NCBI RefSeq assembly: GCF_000470655.1 | Contig: NC_021921.1 | Coordinates: 1,240,001 to 1,304,000 of the forward strand | DNA from: Halorhabdus tiamatea SARL4B | GTDB taxonomy: Archaea; Halobacteriota; Halobacteria; Halobacteriales; Haloarculaceae | Length of the DNA: 64,000 nt | Direction of reading: 5' to 3' | Part shown: one piece after another, positions 37,729 to 49,204 of the stretch | How the letters are laid out: each line of letters begins with the position of its first letter | Numbering within the stretch: position 1 is the first letter of the stretch | The notes under the pieces: generated by a model | The model's input: the letters and a program-made list of their open reading frames with translations, nothing else | Database searches by the model: none | What the model was told of the DNA's origin: nothing | Position numbers and translations under genes: made by a program

Positions 37729-39069
37729 GTGAAGCGCACCAACACGTTCGCCGTGCGACCGCTCACTGACGACGATGAGCGGGTGCTACGCGACCTGTTG
37801 GACGCTTCCGCCGCTCTCTGGAACGAGATTAATTACCAGCGCCTCATGCGCTACAACGACGAGGACGGCTTCGAGGGCGACGTATGGGACGCCGATACCG
37901 GCGCTCTCGAAGGCAAATACAAAGGCGTTCTCGGCGCGTCCACCGCTCAAACTGTCCGGCGAGCAAACACCGAAGCGTGGCGCGGGTTCTTCAACACGAA
38001 GAACAAGTACCACGACGAGTCGAACACGTCGGTCACGGAACACCCGGAACCGCCGGGCTTCCGTGGCAATGAAGACGACGGACGTGTCCTCAAAGGCGTC
38101 GTCCGAAAGGATGCCTACACCGTCGAATGGGGCGACCGCTCTCGGCTTGAGATGGTTGTCGGCAAAGAACTCCGTGACAGGCACAACAGCCCGAAAAGCC
38201 GTCTCCGGTTGGAAATCGTTGGCGACCCGAACTGGCCTGACTACGAAGACCAAGGCCGACTAGAACTGTGGTACGACGAGACTGATAGCACTTTCAGAGC
38301 TTCGCAACCCGTGACGGTTTCTGCCGATACACGGGACACTCCACTGGCCGACGAAAAGGCCGCTCTGGACATTGGTGCAAACAATCTCGTCGCCTGTACC
38401 ACCACGACTGGCGAGCAATACCTGTACGAAGGCCGTGAGTTGTTCCAGCGATTCCGTGAGACGACACGAGAAATCGCCCGGTTACAGTCCAAGCTCAAAG
38501 AAAACAGGTACACTAGCAAGCGTATCCGGCGGCTGTACCGAAAGCGAACCCGTCGCCGCGACCACGCCCAAGAAGCACTGTGTCGTGATCTGCTCGAACG
38601 ACTGTACGCCGAGGGCGTGGACACGGTGTATGTCGGTGGCTTGACTGACGTACTCGAAACGCACTGGTCGGTCAAGGTGAACGCGAAGACCCACAACTTT
38701 TGGGCGTTCAAGCAATTCACCGAGCGACTGGCGTGTACCGCTGAAGAATACGGCATCTCGGTGGAAGTTCGGTCGGAAGCGTGGACCAGCCAAGAGTGCC
38801 CACAGTGTGGCGGCACAGACCGAACGACACGGCATCAGGACACGCTCACCTGTCAGTGTGGGTTCGAGGGGCACGCCGACCTTACGGCTTCAGAAACGTT
38901 CCTCAAGCGGCACACCACGAAAGAAGTCAGGCCGATGGCACGGCCCGTGCGGTTCGAGTGGGACGACCACAACTGGTCGGAGTCACCACGCTCTCACCGT
39001 CCCAAAGAACAGCGCACAGACCCGAGTACCGTCCACCCGGGCGGGAATGTTGCTTCCGGCGAGTCGTAG
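37729..39069 (+). CDS. tnpB: TnpB with substituted RuvC-II glutamate
   Basis: 446 residues, uninterrupted. RuvC-I Asp in [12 protein letters not shown] (about 222), zinc ribbon CPQCGG...TCQCG (about 363-385) and RuvC-III Asp in [13 protein letters not shown]. Where RuvC-II normally reads V-E-(D/N)-L the sequence is [15 protein letters not shown], so the standard Glu is Gly; a Glu seven residues on could replace it. Start taken at the GTG at 37729 (it encodes [12 protein letters not shown]), which follows a TATA-like TCTTTTATG. The nuclease may be dead, reprogrammed or use a shifted Glu. Confidence 0.85.
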
Positions 39070-39220: not shown

Positions 39221-40084
39221 TCAGCGGTCGACGTACGCCGAGACGAGGGGCTCGACCCGTCGGAACGTCTCTTCGGGGATGGCGTCGGCGTCGGTGTTGA
39301 TCGTCCCCTCGAGAGCAGTGTGACACTCGCAGGTGTGCTCGTCCGGCAGCGTCTCGACGGCGTGCTGGACAGCCTCCTTGATGACGGCCTCGTTTGCGGC
39401 CGCGTTCTCGAGCACTCCCTCGAGTGAAACCTCGGCGTCGTCCTTCCAGACGTCCCAGTCAGTGACGCCGGCGATCGTCGCGTAGCTGAGTTCGGCCTCG
39501 CGGGCGAGTTTCGCCTCCGGAATGGCTGTCATCCCGACGACGTCCCAGCCCTGGTCCCGGAAGAACTCGCTCTCTGCGCGCGTCGAGTACTGCGGTCCTT
39601 CGATGCAGACGTACGTCCCGCCGCGCCGGGCGGTCGTCTCGGTGGCTTCGTCGACGGCGTCGGCGAGGTGGCTCGCGAGATCGGGACAGAACGGCTCGGC
39701 GAAGCCCTGGTGGACGACGATGCCGTCGCCAAAGAAAGTGAACCCACGGTGGCGCGTCCGGTCAAACAGCTGGTCTGGCACGACGATCGTCTGTGGCGGG
39801 ATGTCGGCGTCGAGACTCCCGACGGCGTTCGTCGCGATGACGTGAGAGACACCGAGGTCCTTCAGCGCGTAGATGTTCGCGCGGTAGGGAACCTCGGTCG
39901 GCGAGTATTCGTGGTTCTCGCCGTGACGTGGGACGAACGCAATCTCGCGGTCGGTACCGGCGAGCGTCCCGATCGTGATCGGGGCGCTCGGGTCGCCGTA
40001 GGGCGTCTCGACGTCGATCGTACGCGTCTCTTCGAGCGGGAGCGCGTCGTAGATACCGCTGCCTCCGATGAAGCCGATCGGCAT
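39221..40084 (-). CDS. mtnP: S-methyl-5'-thioadenosine phosphorylase
   Basis: 287 residues from the ATG at 40084; codons further upstream are not conserved-looking. Cleaves methylthioadenosine with phosphate to adenine and methylthioribose-1-phosphate. Motifs: IGFIGGSGIYD at the start, FVPRHGENHEYSPTEVPYRANIYALK (about 55), VCIEGPQYSTRAE (about 180) and VVGMTAIPEAKLAREAELSYA. Divergent from the R15P isomerase gene. Confidence 0.92.
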   Translation of the reverse strand: MPIGFIGGSGIYDALPLEETRTIDVETPYGDPSAPITIGTLAGTDREIAFVPRHGENHEYSPTEVPYRANIYALKDLGVSHVIATNAVGSLDADIPPQTIVVPDQLFDRTRHRGFTFFGDGIVVHQGFAEPFCPDLASHLADAVDEATETTARRGGTYVCIEGPQYSTRAESEFFRDQGWDVVGMTAIPEAKLAREAELSYATIAGVTDWDVWKDDAEVSLEGVLENAAANEAVIKEAVQHAVETLPDEHTCECHTALEGTINTDADAIPEETFRRVEPLVSAYVDR

Positions 40085-40207
40085 GGCCCTGTATACCGCC
40101 ACCAGTCCTAAAGACGTGGTGGTCGACTCCCCGGACGACCGGCCAGGCAGAGCCCTCCCGCCCGAAACCCAGCGGATTCTTAACGGGTGCGGGACTACGT
40201 TCGGCCA

Positions 40208-41152
40208 ATGACCCATCAGCGAGTCCGCACAGTCTCGGAACAGATCGAGAACCGGGACATCCGTGGGACCGCGACCATCGCCCGCGAGACGGCTCAGGCG
40301 ATCGAGGTCGCGGCGGACGACGCCGAGGCCGAAACGCCGGCCGAATTCCGCGAGACCATCCGGGTGGCCGCCCGAACGCTTCACGAGGCCCGGCCGGACG
40401 ACGACAGCCTCTCGAACGCGCTCAGATATCTCTTCAAACGCATGGACGGTGAGACAGTCGCGACTCTCCAGGAGTCAGTGACGAGCGCTGCCCGGCGATT
40501 CCAGGAGAACATCGACCGGGCGCGCGAGACGCTCGGCCAGATCGGGGCCCGTCGGTTGCAGGACGGCGATACAGTCATGGTTCACTCCCACTCGGCGGAC
40601 GCGCTGGCGACGATCGAGCACGCCCTCGAAGCCGGCAAGGAGATCGACGCGATCGTCAAGGAGACACGCCCCCGGAAACAGGGTCACATCGCCGCCCAGC
40701 AACTCCAGGAGTGGGGCGTCCCGACGACCCTGATCGTCGACAGCGCGGCACGGCGGTACCTCGACGAGACCGACCAGGTCGTCGTCGGAGCGGACAGCAT
40801 CGCCGCCGACGGGTCGGTCGTCAACCGGATCGGGACCAGCGATCTGGCGGTCATCGCCCGCGAACGCGGCGTCCCGGTCACCGTCGCCGCCCAGACGGTG
40901 CGTCTCCATCCGGACTCGCTGACGGGTCACAGCGCCGGTATCGAAAATCGCCCCGAACGCGAGGTTCTGGACGACGCCACGCGCAAGCAGATCGGCGAGG
41001 TCAGCGTCGAGAACCCGGCCTTCGACGTGACGCCCGCCCGGTACGTCGACGCCATCGTCACCGAACGCGGCCAGTATCCACCCGAGAGCGTCGTCACGCT
41101 AATGAGAGAACTCTACGGCGGGTCGGCCAGAGACCCCTGGCTCGAGGAGTGA
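40208..41152 (+). CDS. ribose-1,5-bisphosphate isomerase (eIF2B-like family)
   Basis: 314 residues from the ATG at 40208. Family of archaeal R15P isomerases related to eIF2B and MtnA: VMVHSHSADALATIEHA (about 135), KETRPRKQGHIAAQQL, VVVGADSIAADGSVVNRIGTSDLAVIARE (catalytic Asp) and the ending NPAFDVTPARYVDAIVTERG. It turns ribose-1,5-bisphosphate into ribulose-1,5-bisphosphate in nucleoside breakdown. In haloarchaea a non-carboxylating pentose bisphosphate route has been described that uses this step. Partner enzymes R1P kinase and RuBisCO are not in the window. Confidence 0.88.
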   Translation: MTHQRVRTVSEQIENRDIRGTATIARETAQAIEVAADDAEAETPAEFRETIRVAARTLHEARPDDDSLSNALRYLFKRMDGETVATLQESVTSAARRFQENIDRARETLGQIGARRLQDGDTVMVHSHSADALATIEHALEAGKEIDAIVKETRPRKQGHIAAQQLQEWGVPTTLIVDSAARRYLDETDQVVVGADSIAADGSVVNRIGTSDLAVIARERGVPVTVAAQTVRLHPDSLTGHSAGIENRPEREVLDDATRKQIGEVSVENPAFDVTPARYVDAIVTERGQYPPESVVTLMRELYGGSARDPWLEE

Positions 41153-41220: not shown

Positions 41221-41862
41221 ATGGACGACGTCCTCCAGCGGATCGAACACACGGTACTCGGCCCCGAAACGACACCGGCAGACGTCGAGGCTGTCCTCGA
41301 CGACGCCAGCGAATACGGCCTGCGCGCGTGCATCCCGCCGTGCTATCTCGAATTGGCGGGCGAGTATGCCCCCGACGTCGAGGTGTCGACTGTAATCGGG
41401 TTCCCGCACGGCAATCACACCACGGCGGCCAAGGTCGCGGAGGCCGAGGACGCCGTCGACGCCGGCGCGGACGAACTCGACATGGTGATGAACGTCGGAC
41501 TCCTCAAGGCGGGCGAGGACGAGGCCGTCCGCGAGGACATCGAACGCGTGGTCGCAGCCACGGTGAAGCCGGTGAAGGTCATCATCGAGACGCCGCTTTT
41601 GACCGACGAGGAGAAGCACCGCGCCAGTCAGCTGGTCGCCGACGCGGGCGCTGACTTCGTGAAGACGGCAACGGGCTTTGGCGGCGGCGGTGCCACGGTC
41701 CCCGACGTCGAACTCATGAGCGAGTACGCCCCCGTGAAAGCCAGCGGCGGCGTCGGCTCCTGGGCGGACGCCGAAGCGATGTTCGACGCCGGCGCGGAGC
41801 GCATCGGTGCCTCGAGTGGCGACGTGATCGCCGAGGAGTACCTCGAACAGAACGAGCACTAA
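41221..41862 (+). CDS. deoC: deoxyribose-phosphate aldolase
   Basis: 213 residues, standard length. Splits deoxyribose-5-phosphate into acetaldehyde and glyceraldehyde-3-phosphate. TIM-barrel motifs: [22 protein letters not shown] (Asp of the proton relay), [11 protein letters not shown] (catalytic region), [17 protein letters not shown] (Schiff-base Lys) and [21 protein letters not shown]-like CTTTTATATG lies at about 41190. Completes deoxynucleoside salvage if the mutase at 26310 makes deoxyribose-5-phosphate. Confidence 0.93.
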
Positions 41863-45427: not shown

Positions 45428-46408
45428 TTACTCCGCCGTCGCCGTTTCGAGCGCCTCGGCCGCCAGATCGATCGCCGTCTCCAGGTCCGGCCCGAGCGGC
45501 GACGCGACGACGAAGCTGTCGACGTACGCCATTGCCGCCTCGATCCGATCGGCGACTGTCGCTTTCGACCCGGCGATCGCGAAGGCGTCGATCATCGCCG
45601 GCGTGACCGCCTCGAAGGCCGTCTCGAAGTCTCCACGCTCGATGGCGTCGCCGATCCGCCCCGCGCGGTCGTGATCCAGGTCGTGTCGGTCGAGGACCGG
45701 CGGCGCGGTGCTCCCGACGATGAACGCCACCGGCGGTCGGGCGGCCTCTCTGGCGCGATCTTCGTCCTCGGCGACGCTGACGCTCGCGTAGGCGGCGATG
45801 TCGAAGTCACCACGGTCGTCGGGTCGCTCGGCCCGTCCCTCCGCGATCCGGTCGGCCGACCACGAGAGGTCCGCCGGGTGGGCGGCGTTGACGAGCACGC
45901 CGTCTGCGTGTTTCCCGCTCATCCGCAGCATGTGAGGGCCCTGTGCGCCGACGTAGACGGGGATCTCCCCCACCTCGTAGTTCAGGCTCGCGTCCCGGGC
46001 GACGAACTGGCCGTCGTGATCGACGGTCTCGCCGGCCCAGAGCCGCTGGGCGACTTTGAACGTCTCCAGGACCCGGCGCAGGGGCGAGTCGCGCTCGACG
46101 CCGAGGTTGGCGAGCGTCGAGGCGTCGCCGGCCCCGATCCCGAAGACGCCCCGGCCGTCGCTGGACTCGTCGAGTGTGGCCATCCGCGAGGCGAGTCTAA
46201 CGGGATGGGTCTCGTAGGGGTTGACGACACCCGGGCCGAGTCGGGCCGTCTCCGTCCCGGCCGCGATCGACGACAGCGTCTGGAACGGATCGCGGTTGTT
46301 GTAGTGATTGCTCGCGAAGATGGTGTCGAAGCCGGCGCGTTCGGCGCGCTCGGCCAGTCGCCGTACCGTTTCGACCGGCTGCTCGGGCGTGAGTTCGATG
46401 GCTTTCAT
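45428..46408 (-). CDS. F420-dependent LLM-class oxidoreductase
   Basis: 326 residues, luciferase-like TIM barrel. Motifs: RAGFDTIFASNHYNNRDPFQTL, ARLGPGVVNPYETHPVRLASRMATLDE and RGVFGIGAGDAS, then GEIPVYVGAQGPHMLRMSGKHADGVL. Close to the Mer-like (methylene-tetrahydromethanopterin reductase-type) branch, so it likely moves hydride with F420. It lies 105 bases downstream of cofE on the same strand, which supports an F420 cofactor. Confidence 0.85.
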   Translation of the reverse strand: MKAIELTPEQPVETVRRLAERAERAGFDTIFASNHYNNRDPFQTLSSIAAGTETARLGPGVVNPYETHPVRLASRMATLDESSDGRGVFGIGAGDASTLANLGVERDSPLRRVLETFKVAQRLWAGETVDHDGQFVARDASLNYEVGEIPVYVGAQGPHMLRMSGKHADGVLVNAAHPADLSWSADRIAEGRAERPDDRGDFDIAAYASVSVAEDEDRAREAARPPVAFIVGSTAPPVLDRHDLDHDRAGRIGDAIERGDFETAFEAVTPAMIDAFAIAGSKATVADRIEAAMAYVDSFVVASPLGPDLETAIDLAAEALETATAE

Positions 46409-46513: not shown

Positions 46514-47269
46514 TCACTCGGAGTGATACTCGAAGTCGGCGAGTGCCTGCCGGACGAGATCGCCGTCCCGATCCCGGAACAGGTGGTCGTGGCCGTCGTG
46601 GTCGCCGAACTCCCAGTCGCGCACGACCGCCACGGGCCGGCCGTCGTCGCCCTCGCCCGTGACGAGGTTGGTCGCCGCCGCGAGTTCGTCGACGACGGCC
46701 TCGACGGTCGCCGTGAGTTCGCGGCCCTCGCGGTCGTGTTCGCCCCGCCAGTCCCGCATCGCCGGGAGGCCGGCCCACCCGATCGCGACGCCGCGCTGGC
46801 CCTGCCGAAAGGGCCGACCCGAGGTATCGGTCACGACGACGGGAACCCCGAGCGCGTCGGACAGGCGGCGCGCGCTCGCCGAGGGGTCCTCGGGCAACAG
46901 GAGCAGGTCCGCGCCGGGGACGTTCGAGCGGTCGATTCCGGCATTGACGGTGATATGCCCGAAACGGGTCACCGCCAGGATGAACGGGGCCGCCATGACG
47001 AGTTCCTCGCTCTCCTCGATGACCGCCTGGGCGAAGCGCGGATCCTTGCGCTCGCCGGCGATTTCACCGATCTGATCCGCGATGTCGCGGGCGTGCTCGC
47101 CGGCCTCGAAGTCCGACAGATCCGCCCCCCTCCCTTCGGCCTTCGAGACGACCGTGCTGGCGACCGTGAGGACGTCACCCTCACGCAGGTCGACGCGCTC
47201 GTCGATCAGTGTCGCCAGGTCGTCACCCGGTTCGATCTCCGGGATATCGGGGACCGCGAAGACCTCCAT
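46514..47269 (-). CDS. cofE: coenzyme F420:L-glutamate ligase
   Basis: 251 residues. Adds glutamates to F420-0 with GTP. Family motifs: DVLTVASTVVSKAEGR (about 35), VMAAPFILAVTRFGHITVNAGIDRSNVPG (about 95) and VVVTDTSGRPFRQGQRGVAIGWAGLP (about 150). Start at 47269 (MEVFAVPDIPEI). Grouped with an F420-type oxidoreductase gene. Confidence 0.92.
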   Translation of the reverse strand: MEVFAVPDIPEIEPGDDLATLIDERVDLREGDVLTVASTVVSKAEGRGADLSDFEAGEHARDIADQIGEIAGERKDPRFAQAVIEESEELVMAAPFILAVTRFGHITVNAGIDRSNVPGADLLLLPEDPSASARRLSDALGVPVVVTDTSGRPFRQGQRGVAIGWAGLPAMRDWRGEHDREGRELTATVEAVVDELAAATNLVTGEGDDGRPVAVVRDWEFGDHDGHDHLFRDRDGDLVRQALADFEYHSE

Positions 47270-47357: not shown

Positions 47358-47864
47358 CTACGCGATTTCGGACTCGCGGTGGACAGTCACCGAGAGGTCG
47401 CCGTCGCTGGCCGTCGCCGTCAGCATCGTGGCCTCGCTGGCCGGCGACGCGCCCGTAACGCTGCCGGGATTGAGCAGCCGAACGCCGTCGACCGTCGTAT
47501 CCAGGCACTCGTGGGTGTGACCCGCGACGCCGACGGTCGGCCCCTCGCTCCCCTCCTCTGCGACGATCCCGGCGACTCGCTGCTCGTAGTTGTGTCGCGA
47601 TCCAGTACCGTGGGTCACGACGAACTCGACGCCGCCGAGTGAGACGGTCTCGACGTCTGGCAGGCCGAGCGCACGCGGGTCCATGTTCCCGGCGACGGCG
47701 GTGAGCCGGCTCGCCGCGGCCCGGACGTCCGCGAGCGCGGCCGATGAGTCGAAGTCCCCGGCGTGGATAACGTGGTCGGCCGTGCGAACGCGTTCGAGCG
47801 CCCAGTCGGGGATCGCCGGTTCACGGGAGGGAACGTGTGAATCGCTGATGATCGCAACGTCCAT
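47358..47864 (-). CDS. YfcE/MJ0936-type metallophosphoesterase
   Basis: 168 residues. Calcineurin-like metal motifs: IISDSHVP (DxH), VIHAGDFDS (GD), VAGNMDPR (GNxD), VVTHGTG and VGVAGHTHE (GHTH). Small cytosolic phosphodiesterase/phosphatase; substrate unknown. Confidence 0.9.
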   Translation of the reverse strand: MDVAIISDSHVPSREPAIPDWALERVRTADHVIHAGDFDSSAALADVRAAASRLTAVAGNMDPRALGLPDVETVSLGGVEFVVTHGTGSRHNYEQRVAGIVAEEGSEGPTVGVAGHTHECLDTTVDGVRLLNPGSVTGASPASEATMLTATASDGDLSVTVHRESEIA

Positions 47865-47947: not shown

Positions 47948-49204
47948 ATGGACGAGGTACACGTCGTCACCTGCTTCCTTCGGAACCACGGCGAGGTTCT
48001 CCTCCTGCGTCGGAGCGACGCCGTCGGCTCGTACGCAGGACAGTGGGGGGCCGTCTCCGGACACGCCGAGGGTGATCCCGACGCAATGGCCCGAGAAGAG
48101 ATCGCCGAGGAGACTGGACTCGCCGACGCCGTGACCCTTCGGCGGGGCGGTGCTCCCTTCGACGTCGTGGATGCCGAACGGGGGGCGCGGTGGATCGTCC
48201 ACCCCTTCCTCTTCGAGGTGGACGATCGGACGGTCGAACCCAACGACGAGACGGCCGAGTACGAGTGGGTCCATCCGACGGCGATCCTCCGCCGGGAGAC
48301 CGTCCCGGATCTCTGGGCGTCATACGACCGGGTTCGGCCGACCGTCGAGGCCGTCCGCGAGGATCGCGACCACGGGTCGGCGTGGCTGTCGATCCGGGCG
48401 CTAGAGATCCTCCGCGACGAAGCGGGCGTCCGGACGTGGGGAGAGGGGAGTGGCGGGTGGGACGCCGTGGCCGCGATCGCCCGCGATCTTCGGGACGCCC
48501 GCCCCTCGATGCCCGTCGTCGCAAACCGGGTAAATCGGGTGATGGCGCGAGCGGATCGGTCGCCGGCGGCTGTCGAGCACATCGCTCGCGAGGGGCTCGA
48601 AGCCGCCTTCGCGGCCGACGGCGGGGCGGCCGAACACGCTGCCGAGTTGCTCCCGGATCGGATCGCGACGCTCTCGCGCTCGGGAACGGTCCGGACGGCG
48701 ATCGAACGCGCCGATCCCGAGGCGGTGCTGGTCGCCCAGTCGCGACCGGGCGGCGAGGGAGTCGGTGTGGCCGAAGAGTTGGCGGGGGAGCGAGACGTGA
48801 CCATCGCCGCCGACGCCGATCTGGCGTGGGCGATCCACGAGTGGGAATCGGGTGCGGTCATCGTCGGAGCCGACGCGATCCGGCCGGACGGCGGAGTGCT
48901 GAACAAGGCCGGGACGCGTTCGGCGGCGCTCGCTGCCGCCCACGAGGGCGTGCCCGTCCTCGTCGCGGCGGCAGCCGACAAGGTGGACGCCGATGGAGAG
49001 CGTGAGATCGAATCCGTCGATCCCGGACGAATCTACGACGGGACGGCGGATCTGACCGTCCGATCGCCGCTGTTCGACGTGACGCCGCCGGAGTTGGTCG
49101 ACGCGATCTGTACGGACCGGGGTGTGCTCGAACCGGAGGATATTGAGGCGGTCGCAGCGGAGCACCGGGCGAACGCCGAGTGGGAAGACCGATTGAATAG
49201 TTGA
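47948..49204 (+). CDS. NUDIX domain fused to eIF2B/R15P-isomerase-like domain
   Basis: 418 residues with two parts. Residues 1-135: NUDIX hydrolase, box G-x5-E-x7-REUxEE visible as SGHAEGDPDAMAREEIAEETGL. Residues about 160-415: eIF2B alpha/beta/delta-like fold, with IVGADAIRPDGGVLNKAGTRSAALAAAHEG and PLFDVTPPELVDAICTDRG, the same signature as the R15P isomerase at 40208. The basic catalytic region GSHS is degenerate (VLVAQSRPGGEG). A fused phosphohydrolase/isomerase-like enzyme acting on a sugar-nucleotide is inferred. Confidence 0.8.
   Translation: MDEVHVVTCFLRNHGEVLLLRRSDAVGSYAGQWGAVSGHAEGDPDAMAREEIAEETGLADAVTLRRGGAPFDVVDAERGARWIVHPFLFEVDDRTVEPNDETAEYEWVHPTAILRRETVPDLWASYDRVRPTVEAVREDRDHGSAWLSIRALEILRDEAGVRTWGEGSGGWDAVAAIARDLRDARPSMPVVANRVNRVMARADRSPAAVEHIAREGLEAAFAADGGAAEHAAELLPDRIATLSRSGTVRTAIERADPEAVLVAQSRPGGEGVGVAEELAGERDVTIAADADLAWAIHEWESGAVIVGADAIRPDGGVLNKAGTRSAALAAAHEGVPVLVAAAADKVDADGEREIESVDPGRIYDGTADLTVRSPLFDVTPPELVDAICTDRGVLEPEDIEAVAAEHRANAEWEDRLNS

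Follow-up and report, generated by a model that had tools for sequence, protein, structure and literature searches.

The question raised by this locus is what a nucleotide-cleaving domain gains from being joined to a relative of eIF2B. In a 64,000-nucleotide stretch of DNA from Halorhabdus tiamatea SARL4B (hereafter, the window), one open reading frame encodes a NUDIX domain followed by a domain with the fold of eIF2B and R15P isomerase (R15Pi). The initial annotation took this fusion to predict sequential chemistry, wherein the NUDIX part cleaves a nucleotide-sugar and the second domain acts on the freed sugar phosphate. The gene and its two domains lie at the following positions.

47948..49204, forward strand: NUDIX-IF2B fusion gene encoding 418 amino acids, recognized by an open reading frame with an ATG start, Pfam matches, relatives, and a structure model
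47963..48313, forward strand: NUDIX domain, residues 6-122 (PF00293, E = 4.4e-12, 46.6 bits, cut-off 21.1)
48371..49135, forward strand: IF-2B domain with the eIF2B/R15Pi fold, residues 142-396 (PF01008, E = 2.3e-41, 142.3 bits, cut-off 22.4)

Judging from near-full-length homologues within the genus and a wide presence in the class, this frame is a real gene. Both domains exceed their Pfam cut-offs in a single open reading frame, which bears out the claimed fusion. An AlphaFold model of the 418-residue protein, built with a 30-row alignment, has a pLDDT of 95.1 and a pTM of 0.92. In fold searches, the IF-2B region of this model matched R15Pi (5yfx; Z 31.5, rmsd 2.8 over 285), the aIF2B-alpha protein PH0440 (1vb5; Z 29.4, rmsd 2.8 over 262), and human eIF2B-alpha (Z 26.6), and the NUDIX region resembled MutT-like folds (Z about 17). 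A genome search returned two PF01008 genes, both inside the window: the fusion and an R15Pi homologue at 40187-41149. The description of the fusion as a second eIF2B-like fold therefore also stands. The fusion is homologous over nearly its whole length in four other searched genomes of the genus (65-82% identity), and its closest named relatives are those of H. amylolytica (71%) and H. salina (68%). By hand count at E<1e-40, 153 of the 194 class genomes carry an orthologue and 41 have none, where the larger number takes in some copies that are broken or have no NUDIX part.

Whether the second domain could be an enzyme depends on the residues that line its pocket, among them the following.

48500..48502, forward strand: Arg185, equivalent to R15Pi Arg65 (1-phosphate ligand), kept in 167/172 aligned sequences
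48674..48676, forward strand: Ser243, replacing the R15Pi catalytic Cys; Ser in 92/92 distinct members and 172/172 aligned sequences
48755..48757, forward strand: Glu270, replacing R15Pi Gln166 (1-phosphate ligand); Glu in 92/92 distinct members and 172/172 aligned sequences
48872..48874, forward strand: Asp309, equivalent to R15Pi Asp204 (second catalytic residue), kept in 171/172 with one gap
48902..48907, forward strand: Asn319-Lys320, equivalent to R15Pi Asn214-Lys215 (sugar ligands), each in 172/172
48980..48982, forward strand: Lys345, equivalent to R15Pi Lys240 (5-phosphate ligand), in 171/172; here equated with human eIF2B-alpha Lys234

According to the available excerpts of PMC5789824, Pyrococcus R15Pi holds the 1-phosphate through Arg22, Arg65, Gln166, and Lys215 and the 5-phosphate through Ser137, Lys240, and backbone amides; the sugar is contacted by Asp204, Asn214, and Lys215, and catalysis is carried out by Cys135 and Asp204 (the catalytic Cys is Cys133 in the Tk enzyme and Cys135 in the Ph enzyme). 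The same excerpts state that the C135S Pyrococcus enzyme binds R15P and leaves it unreacted, and that eIF2B-alpha is without the Cys and the 1-phosphate ligands while retaining the sugar and 5-phosphate ligands (PMC5789824).

In the window protein, the catalytic Asp and the sugar and 5-phosphate ligands are all present (D309, N319, K320, S245, and K345). The 1-phosphate set is incomplete, with His142, Arg185, and Glu270 standing where R15Pi has Arg22, Arg65, and Gln166, and of these three only the Arg65 equivalent kept. Across the family, the Arg22 position is His in 162 of 172 members, the equivalent of Ser137 is kept in all 172, and S243, S245, T247, E270, N319, and K320 are each found in 172/172. 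This 172-sequence alignment counts some species twice, as these were reached by two routes, and the 92 distinct haloarchaeal members were counted as a set of their own; five of 97 and five of 177 sequences, respectively for the smaller and the larger set, were left aside, being three stand-alone NUDIX genes and the broken fusion frames L096 and L101.

As read from these alignments, the second domain has lost the isomerase Cys, has a changed 1-phosphate site, and has kept the sugar and 5-phosphate residues. The remark that the catalytic region is altered was correct: Ser243 replaces the isomerase Cys, and Glu270 replaces Gln166. Because the Cys is Ser in 92/92 distinct members and C135S R15Pi is described as unreactive in the available text (PMC5789824), sequential isomerase chemistry is rejected: a second domain without a usable active site was one of the outcomes that the initial annotation had named as refuting its proposal, and chemical action on a freed sugar phosphate is not supported.

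The IF-2B domain is also under the cut-offs of the curated models for the named families. It scores 75.6 bits against TIGR00511 (R15P isomerase; cut-off 314.1), 84.6 bits against NF004326 (MtnA, MTR1P isomerase; cut-off 271), and 70.1 bits against NF006210 (aIF-2B alpha; cut-off 339). MtnA also works through Cys/Asp, and the aligned MtnA rows carry Cys where the fusion family has Ser. In an IQ-TREE analysis of 48 rows, a branch with 98/92 support separates R15Pi and MtnA from the domain, which sits with PH0440, paralogues of the HVO_2706 type, and two genes from proteobacteria; PH0440 is one long branch of unsure exact placement in this tree, which leaves out human eIF2B-alpha and the partial G601 IF-2B sequence. 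The same tree did not unite the NUDIX-linked IF-2B domains in a single clade, yet such a clade was not rejected (p 0.10).

With R15P isomerase (TK0185, PH0208; TIGR00511), the domain has in common its fold (Z 31.5) and, at the sugar and 5-phosphate sites, Asp, Asn, Ser, and two Lys residues, but it is without the catalytic Cys and has its 1-phosphate residues replaced. The likeness to PH0440 (1vb5) extends to the replaced Cys itself, to the motifs PSM, SxSSTV, EG, GAD, and NKAGT, to the Lys, and to the side of the tree. In the available excerpts, eIF2B-alpha is reported to bind sugar phosphates without catalysis, with F6P bound at a micromolar Kd (PMC8187479, PMC8576121), and the bound sugar is described as solvent-exposed at its 1′ position, such that UMP or AMP could fit (PMC8187479).

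The other PF01008 gene of the window has changes of its own.

40187-41149, forward strand: R15Pi homologue (PF01008)

In this homologue, the motif with the catalytic Cys has changed from HCHS to HSHS, and two ligand Lys residues are gone as well (NKIGT to NRIGT and AQTxK to AQTVR). The two other genomes of the genus with an R15Pi homologue (L223 and L224) read HSHS, NQIGT, and AQTLR, and the 30 other haloarchaeal R15Pi sequences read (L113-L142) keep the Cys and Lys residues. From these motifs, the Halorhabdus homologue looks like a conserved pseudoenzyme. It is flanked by genes for a nucleoside phosphorylase (39224-40384, reverse strand) and a DeoC-family aldolase (41221-41859, forward strand), and an OrfB_IS605/TnpB-like transposase gene (37729-39066, forward strand) lies about 1.1 kb before it.

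Membership of the fusion in the halophile pentose bisphosphate pathway was also considered and rejected, as the fusion does not track R15Pi. An R15Pi match over the cut-off was found in 96 of 153 fusion-bearing versus 34 of 41 fusion-lacking genomes, a negative association (Fisher p 0.015, from a hand-counted table uncorrected for kinship).

The NUDIX half presents a different picture, with its metal site intact in the window.

48059..48121, forward strand: NUDIX box, residues 38-58, with metal glutamates E51, E54, and E55 present in alignments
48248..48250, forward strand: Glu101, likely fourth metal ligand, in 141/142 box-intact versus 7/30 box-broken members

We take Glu101 to correspond to MutT Glu98 on the basis of spacing. 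The domain resembles the NTP pyrophosphohydrolases MutT and NudI in fold (Z about 17) and in its metal glutamates, but differs from them in a box that by eye is shorter than the classical one, in having no Arg before the first Glu, and in having no curated model near its cut-off. Glu50 sits where the classical REUXEE motif has Arg, a residue found there in 40 of the 146 sequences with an EEE triad. The nearest profiles are NudI, 3grn, 3ees, and a NudG-type CTP pyrophosphohydrolase; the curated models listed (NudI, dihydroneopterin-triphosphate, pyrimidine-NTP, and IPP-isomerase) are all far under cut-off, and models of the ADP-ribose or NAD type match weakly in 3 to 8 of 16 family members. With its metal residues intact, the NUDIX domain is apparently working in the window species. 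Its closest affinities appear to be with NTP pyrophosphohydrolases of the NudI and MutT type, and the cleavage of a nucleotide-sugar proposed earlier is the less favored alternative.

Across the family, the triad is kept in 142 of 172 members and not in the remaining 30, which include one genome of the same genus (L007) and a few with just one substitution or a conservative one, such as L056 (EDE). When intact and broken states were placed on a tree of 86 IF-2B domains (60 intact and 26 broken, after six near-copies had been thinned from 92), 12 changes were counted, of which at least six are forced by starred branches; this is a quick tree with SH-aLRT support alone, and the count does not tell gain from loss. 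The IF-2B pocket residues are fixed throughout, whether the NUDIX box is intact or broken, and two loci (L091 and L092) carry the IF-2B part without any NUDIX at the same mer-cofE place. NUDIX catalysis thus looks dispensable in many relatives, and any mechanism that depends on hydrolysis is weakened accordingly.

Comparison of the window gene with four same-genus orthologues gives a dN/dS of 0.15-0.16 in the NUDIX part versus 0.23-0.31 in the IF-2B part, with synonymous sites close to saturation for two of the four, and by this measure the NUDIX half is more strongly constrained than the IF-2B half. For the pair L006/L007, of which L007 has the broken box, the ratios are 0.25 for the NUDIX part versus 0.22 for the rest, and here the same type of estimate shows no tighter constraint on the NUDIX part than elsewhere in the protein. 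In two haloarchaeal genomes (L101, 4995-6235; L096, from 4968), the fusion is split into two frames; these are perhaps pseudogenes or assembly errors.

The same two parts also occur as separate genes. In archaeon G218, which belongs to another class of the same phylum, an IF-2B gene starts inside a NUDIX gene that encodes 136 aa, and the same overlap is found in archaeon G227 at a contig edge. A type I phosphodiesterase gene lies upstream on the same strand at the non-halophilic archaeal locus L097 (3126-4420), where the NUDIX and IF-2B genes overlap. In place of the NKxGT of others, the archaeal split pair has NGAPT.

A set of 369 genomes from the class of G716, which is that of the gammaproteobacterial metagenome-assembled genomes (MAGs) named below, contains nine with a NUDIX of the fusion family (E<=1e-18). 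In six of these nine, an IF-2B gene lies downstream on the same strand: candidate starts overlap in G716, G592, G601, G793, and G722, and in G851 the genes are spaced, with other frames between. Split pairs therefore number two in archaea and six in gammaproteobacteria, always with the NUDIX gene first and with overlapping candidate starts in seven of eight. No IF-2B gene was present within the stretch read for the other three gammaproteobacteria or for archaea L098 and L099, which have the NUDIX. When 398 genomes from the phylum of these gammaproteobacteria were searched with an IF-2B query, three matches were obtained at E<=1e-25, one being the source of the query and the other two being genes with no fusion-family NUDIX next to them. 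With nine NUDIX matches in 369 genomes and three IF-2B matches in 398, the pair is rare in bacteria. At the position of the catalytic Cys, Ser is found in 12/12 aligned IF-2B rows, five of which were extracted by a pattern that requires Ser; the same sequences were also read without the pattern. Ser-type IF-2B genes (HSASSVV, GCDTW) occur in other proteobacteria at L271 (5965-6825) and L272 (5983-6834), and no fusion-family NUDIX was found in the stretch read around either. The proposal that the two domains belong together gains from their recurrence, in the same order, as neighboring and mostly overlapping genes in a few bacteria and in non-halophilic archaea.

The full fusion is also encoded in four gammaproteobacterial MAGs, with 46-50% identity and an intact NUDIX triad.

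L184, 5588-6829: gammaproteobacterial MAG fusion
L192, 9747-10991: gammaproteobacterial MAG fusion
L198, 3130-4374: gammaproteobacterial MAG fusion
L209, 3568-4812: gammaproteobacterial MAG fusion

These genes adjoin a GGDEF-EAL-like gene (by eye), with a divergent iron alcohol dehydrogenase gene and a Usp gene further on. The neighbors of L184 and L192 look bacterial (by eye, with Usp and alcohol dehydrogenase assigned by Pfam), and similar neighbors were not found among the haloarchaeal loci examined. Two MAG fusions fall in one tree group with the haloarchaeal fusions (100/100). Because the bacterial fusions group with haloarchaeal ones and have bacterial-looking neighbors, the fused gene was probably transferred between Archaea and Bacteria, in either direction.

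Upstream of the fusion in the window are three divergent genes that recur at related loci.

47358..47864, reverse strand: calcineurin-like phosphoesterase, within 5 kb in 30/77 loci
46514..47269, reverse strand: CofE-type F420 glutamate ligase, within 5 kb in 58/77 loci (opposite strand in 56/58)
45428..46408, reverse strand: luciferase-like oxidoreductase, within 5 kb in 54/77 loci (opposite strand in 53/54)

The phosphoesterase is presumably YfcE-type, and we take the oxidoreductase to be mer-like. At 80 named loci, cofE is found in 49 (opposite strand in 48/49) and mer in 47 (opposite strand in 46/47). A link to the F420 pathway was nevertheless rejected. The cofE and mer genes run the opposite way, and the four bacterial fusion loci, which differ from the haloarchaeal ones in this respect, gave no cofE, mer, or phosphoesterase match; we therefore read the arrangement as conserved synteny rather than a shared pathway.

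Bacterial loci have other company. In G716 and G592, a DksA-like gene is followed by a hibernation-factor/cold-shock gene, then by the NUDIX and IF-2B genes. At gammaproteobacterial locus L248 (2132-4695), these four are consecutive on one strand, and L261 is arranged likewise. Usp and DksA-like genes surround the pair in G722, two Usp genes, an Hsp20 gene, and a CBS gene surround that in G601, and a Usp gene lies 4 to 6 kb from each of the four MAG fusions. Stress genes are thus near eight of ten bacterial loci with IF-2B beside or fused to NUDIX, and none of those sought was found in G793 or on the short G851 contig; the calls were made by Pfam for L248, L249, and L192 and by phmmer for the rest. 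This tally is a raw count, and we treat it as a lead only.

The architecture itself is already known, having been described as HVO_1934 of Haloferax volcanii, which is annotated as a "NUDIX family hydrolase/eIF-2B domain protein" (PMC3828320, PMC8576121). HVO_1934 has the same two domains as the window gene and belongs to the same family, and the orthologue from another Haloferax species, H. profundi (L220), has the NUDIX triad EEE, as in the window. In the available excerpts of PMC3828320, deletion of HVO_1934, alone or with HVO_2706, is described as having no phenotype, and the legend of the double-mutant figure mentions conditions with phenotypic differences. The corresponding parts of PMC8576121 give at most one or two initiation-factor contacts for HVO_1934, do not support an aIF2B complex, and record a single one-way co-isolation with an RNA polymerase subunit. 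As far as these excerpts go, the published work asked about a role as an initiation factor, not about substrate, ligand, or pocket. The portion available of PMC10663502 contained no match to HVO or eIF-2B terms, and no functional study of a NUDIX and IF-2B/eIF2B pair was found in the literature searched. Kinship with a translation factor was the other outcome that the initial annotation had named as refuting its proposal. By fold and tree this kinship holds, on the PH0440 side, but the Haloferax knock-outs are reported without a growth or translation phenotype (PMC3828320), and the fusion to a NUDIX domain sets the protein apart from eIF2B-alpha and aIF2B-alpha.

Several functions could be imagined for such a protein. 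We consider it highly improbable that the fusion is a bifunctional enzyme whose NUDIX part frees a sugar phosphate that the second domain isomerizes. R15P isomerase is the closest fold (Z 31.5), Asp309 and the sugar residues are kept, and the parts are coupled as operon or fusion. However, the catalytic Cys is missing in 92/92 members, the changes of Gln166 to Glu and Arg22 to His take away 1-phosphate ligands, the IF-2B pocket persists in members with a broken or lost NUDIX, an R15Pi over the cut-off is missing from 57 of 153 genomes that carry the fusion (hand count), and C135S Pyrococcus R15Pi is dead in the excerpts consulted (PMC5789824). The invariance of S243, S245, T247, E270, N319, and K320 at 172/172 is stricter than a mere scaffold needs, and might instead indicate a new enzyme in which Ser243 and Asp309 carry out another reaction on a sugar-5-phosphate or nucleotide. 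This is rather unlikely, given that R15Pi catalysis is described as running via Cys/Asp (excerpts of PMC5789824) and that eIF2B-alpha has the same pattern of loss with binding only (excerpts of PMC5789824, PMC8187479).

A role in translation or ribosome hibernation, with an aIF2B-type subunit whose NUDIX half senses nucleotides, appears unlikely. It would fit the placement with PH0440 (a long branch) in the tree, the position of the G716 and G592 split genes immediately after a hibernation-factor/cold-shock gene that itself follows a DksA-like gene, the Usp genes near others, and the single one-way co-isolation with an RNA polymerase subunit (PMC8576121, in part). It fits less well with the absence of the fusion from 41 of 194 class genomes (hand count), with initiation-factor contacts limited to one or two and an unsupported aIF2B complex (PMC8576121, in part), and with Haloferax single and double deletions described without difference, though a legend mentions phenotypic differences (PMC3828320, in part). 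That the IF-2B domain is a mere oligomerization scaffold for the NUDIX is very unlikely: a scaffold would not hold pocket residues invariant, nor would it outlast NUDIX breakage or full NUDIX loss (L091/L092), even though Pyrococcus R15Pi is a hexamer (PMC5789824) and eIF2B-alpha a dimer (PMC8187479) in the excerpts available.

With moderate confidence, we favor a NUDIX pyrophosphohydrolase coupled to a non-catalytic, eIF2B-alpha-like domain that binds a sugar 5′-phosphate and is probably regulatory or product-sensing. The NUDIX part, probably of NTP type, would yield a nucleoside 5′-monophosphate or a ribose-5-phosphate-like product. The second domain would not isomerize, yet would still hold a sugar with a 5′-phosphate, and may bind the NUDIX product or a related metabolite such as a 5′-NMP, ribose-5-phosphate, or hexose-6-phosphate. 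Through such binding it would control the NUDIX enzyme or else a partner, in the way that eIF2B is controlled by sugar phosphates via eIF2B-alpha. A NUDIX predicted to make 5′-monophosphates beside a pocket for 5′-phosphate sugars suggests the sensing of a product or metabolite, and the fixed pocket of box-broken lineages suggests that it is the sensing half that cannot be dispensed with. NrtR regulators provide precedent for a NUDIX domain as the ligand sensor within a fusion, but in NrtR it is the NUDIX half that is dead, and its partner is a DNA-binding domain. The persistence of the two parts side by side in several lineages is a hint of a common sensing device, not of an enzyme that works in two steps.

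We speculate further, while regarding the idea as possible but doubtful, that a NUDIX and a dead isomerase form an ancient two-part metabolite switch common to Archaea and Bacteria, wherein the NUDIX degrades a damaged NTP or a nucleotide signal, and the 5′-phosphate product is read by the eIF2B-alpha-like part, which so sets a stress or dormancy state. If this were true, eukaryotic eIF2B-alpha would be one branch of an older family of non-catalytic sensors used outside translation. Proteins of this type should in any case not be annotated as sugar-phosphate isomerases. For the archaeal relatives of eIF2B, the question is what regulatory-type subunits do without catalytic ones. The family described here, fused in haloarchaea and encoded by neighboring genes in a few bacteria, is a concrete candidate answer for one branch: a putative non-catalytic sugar-5′-phosphate pocket paired with a nucleotide-cleaving enzyme.
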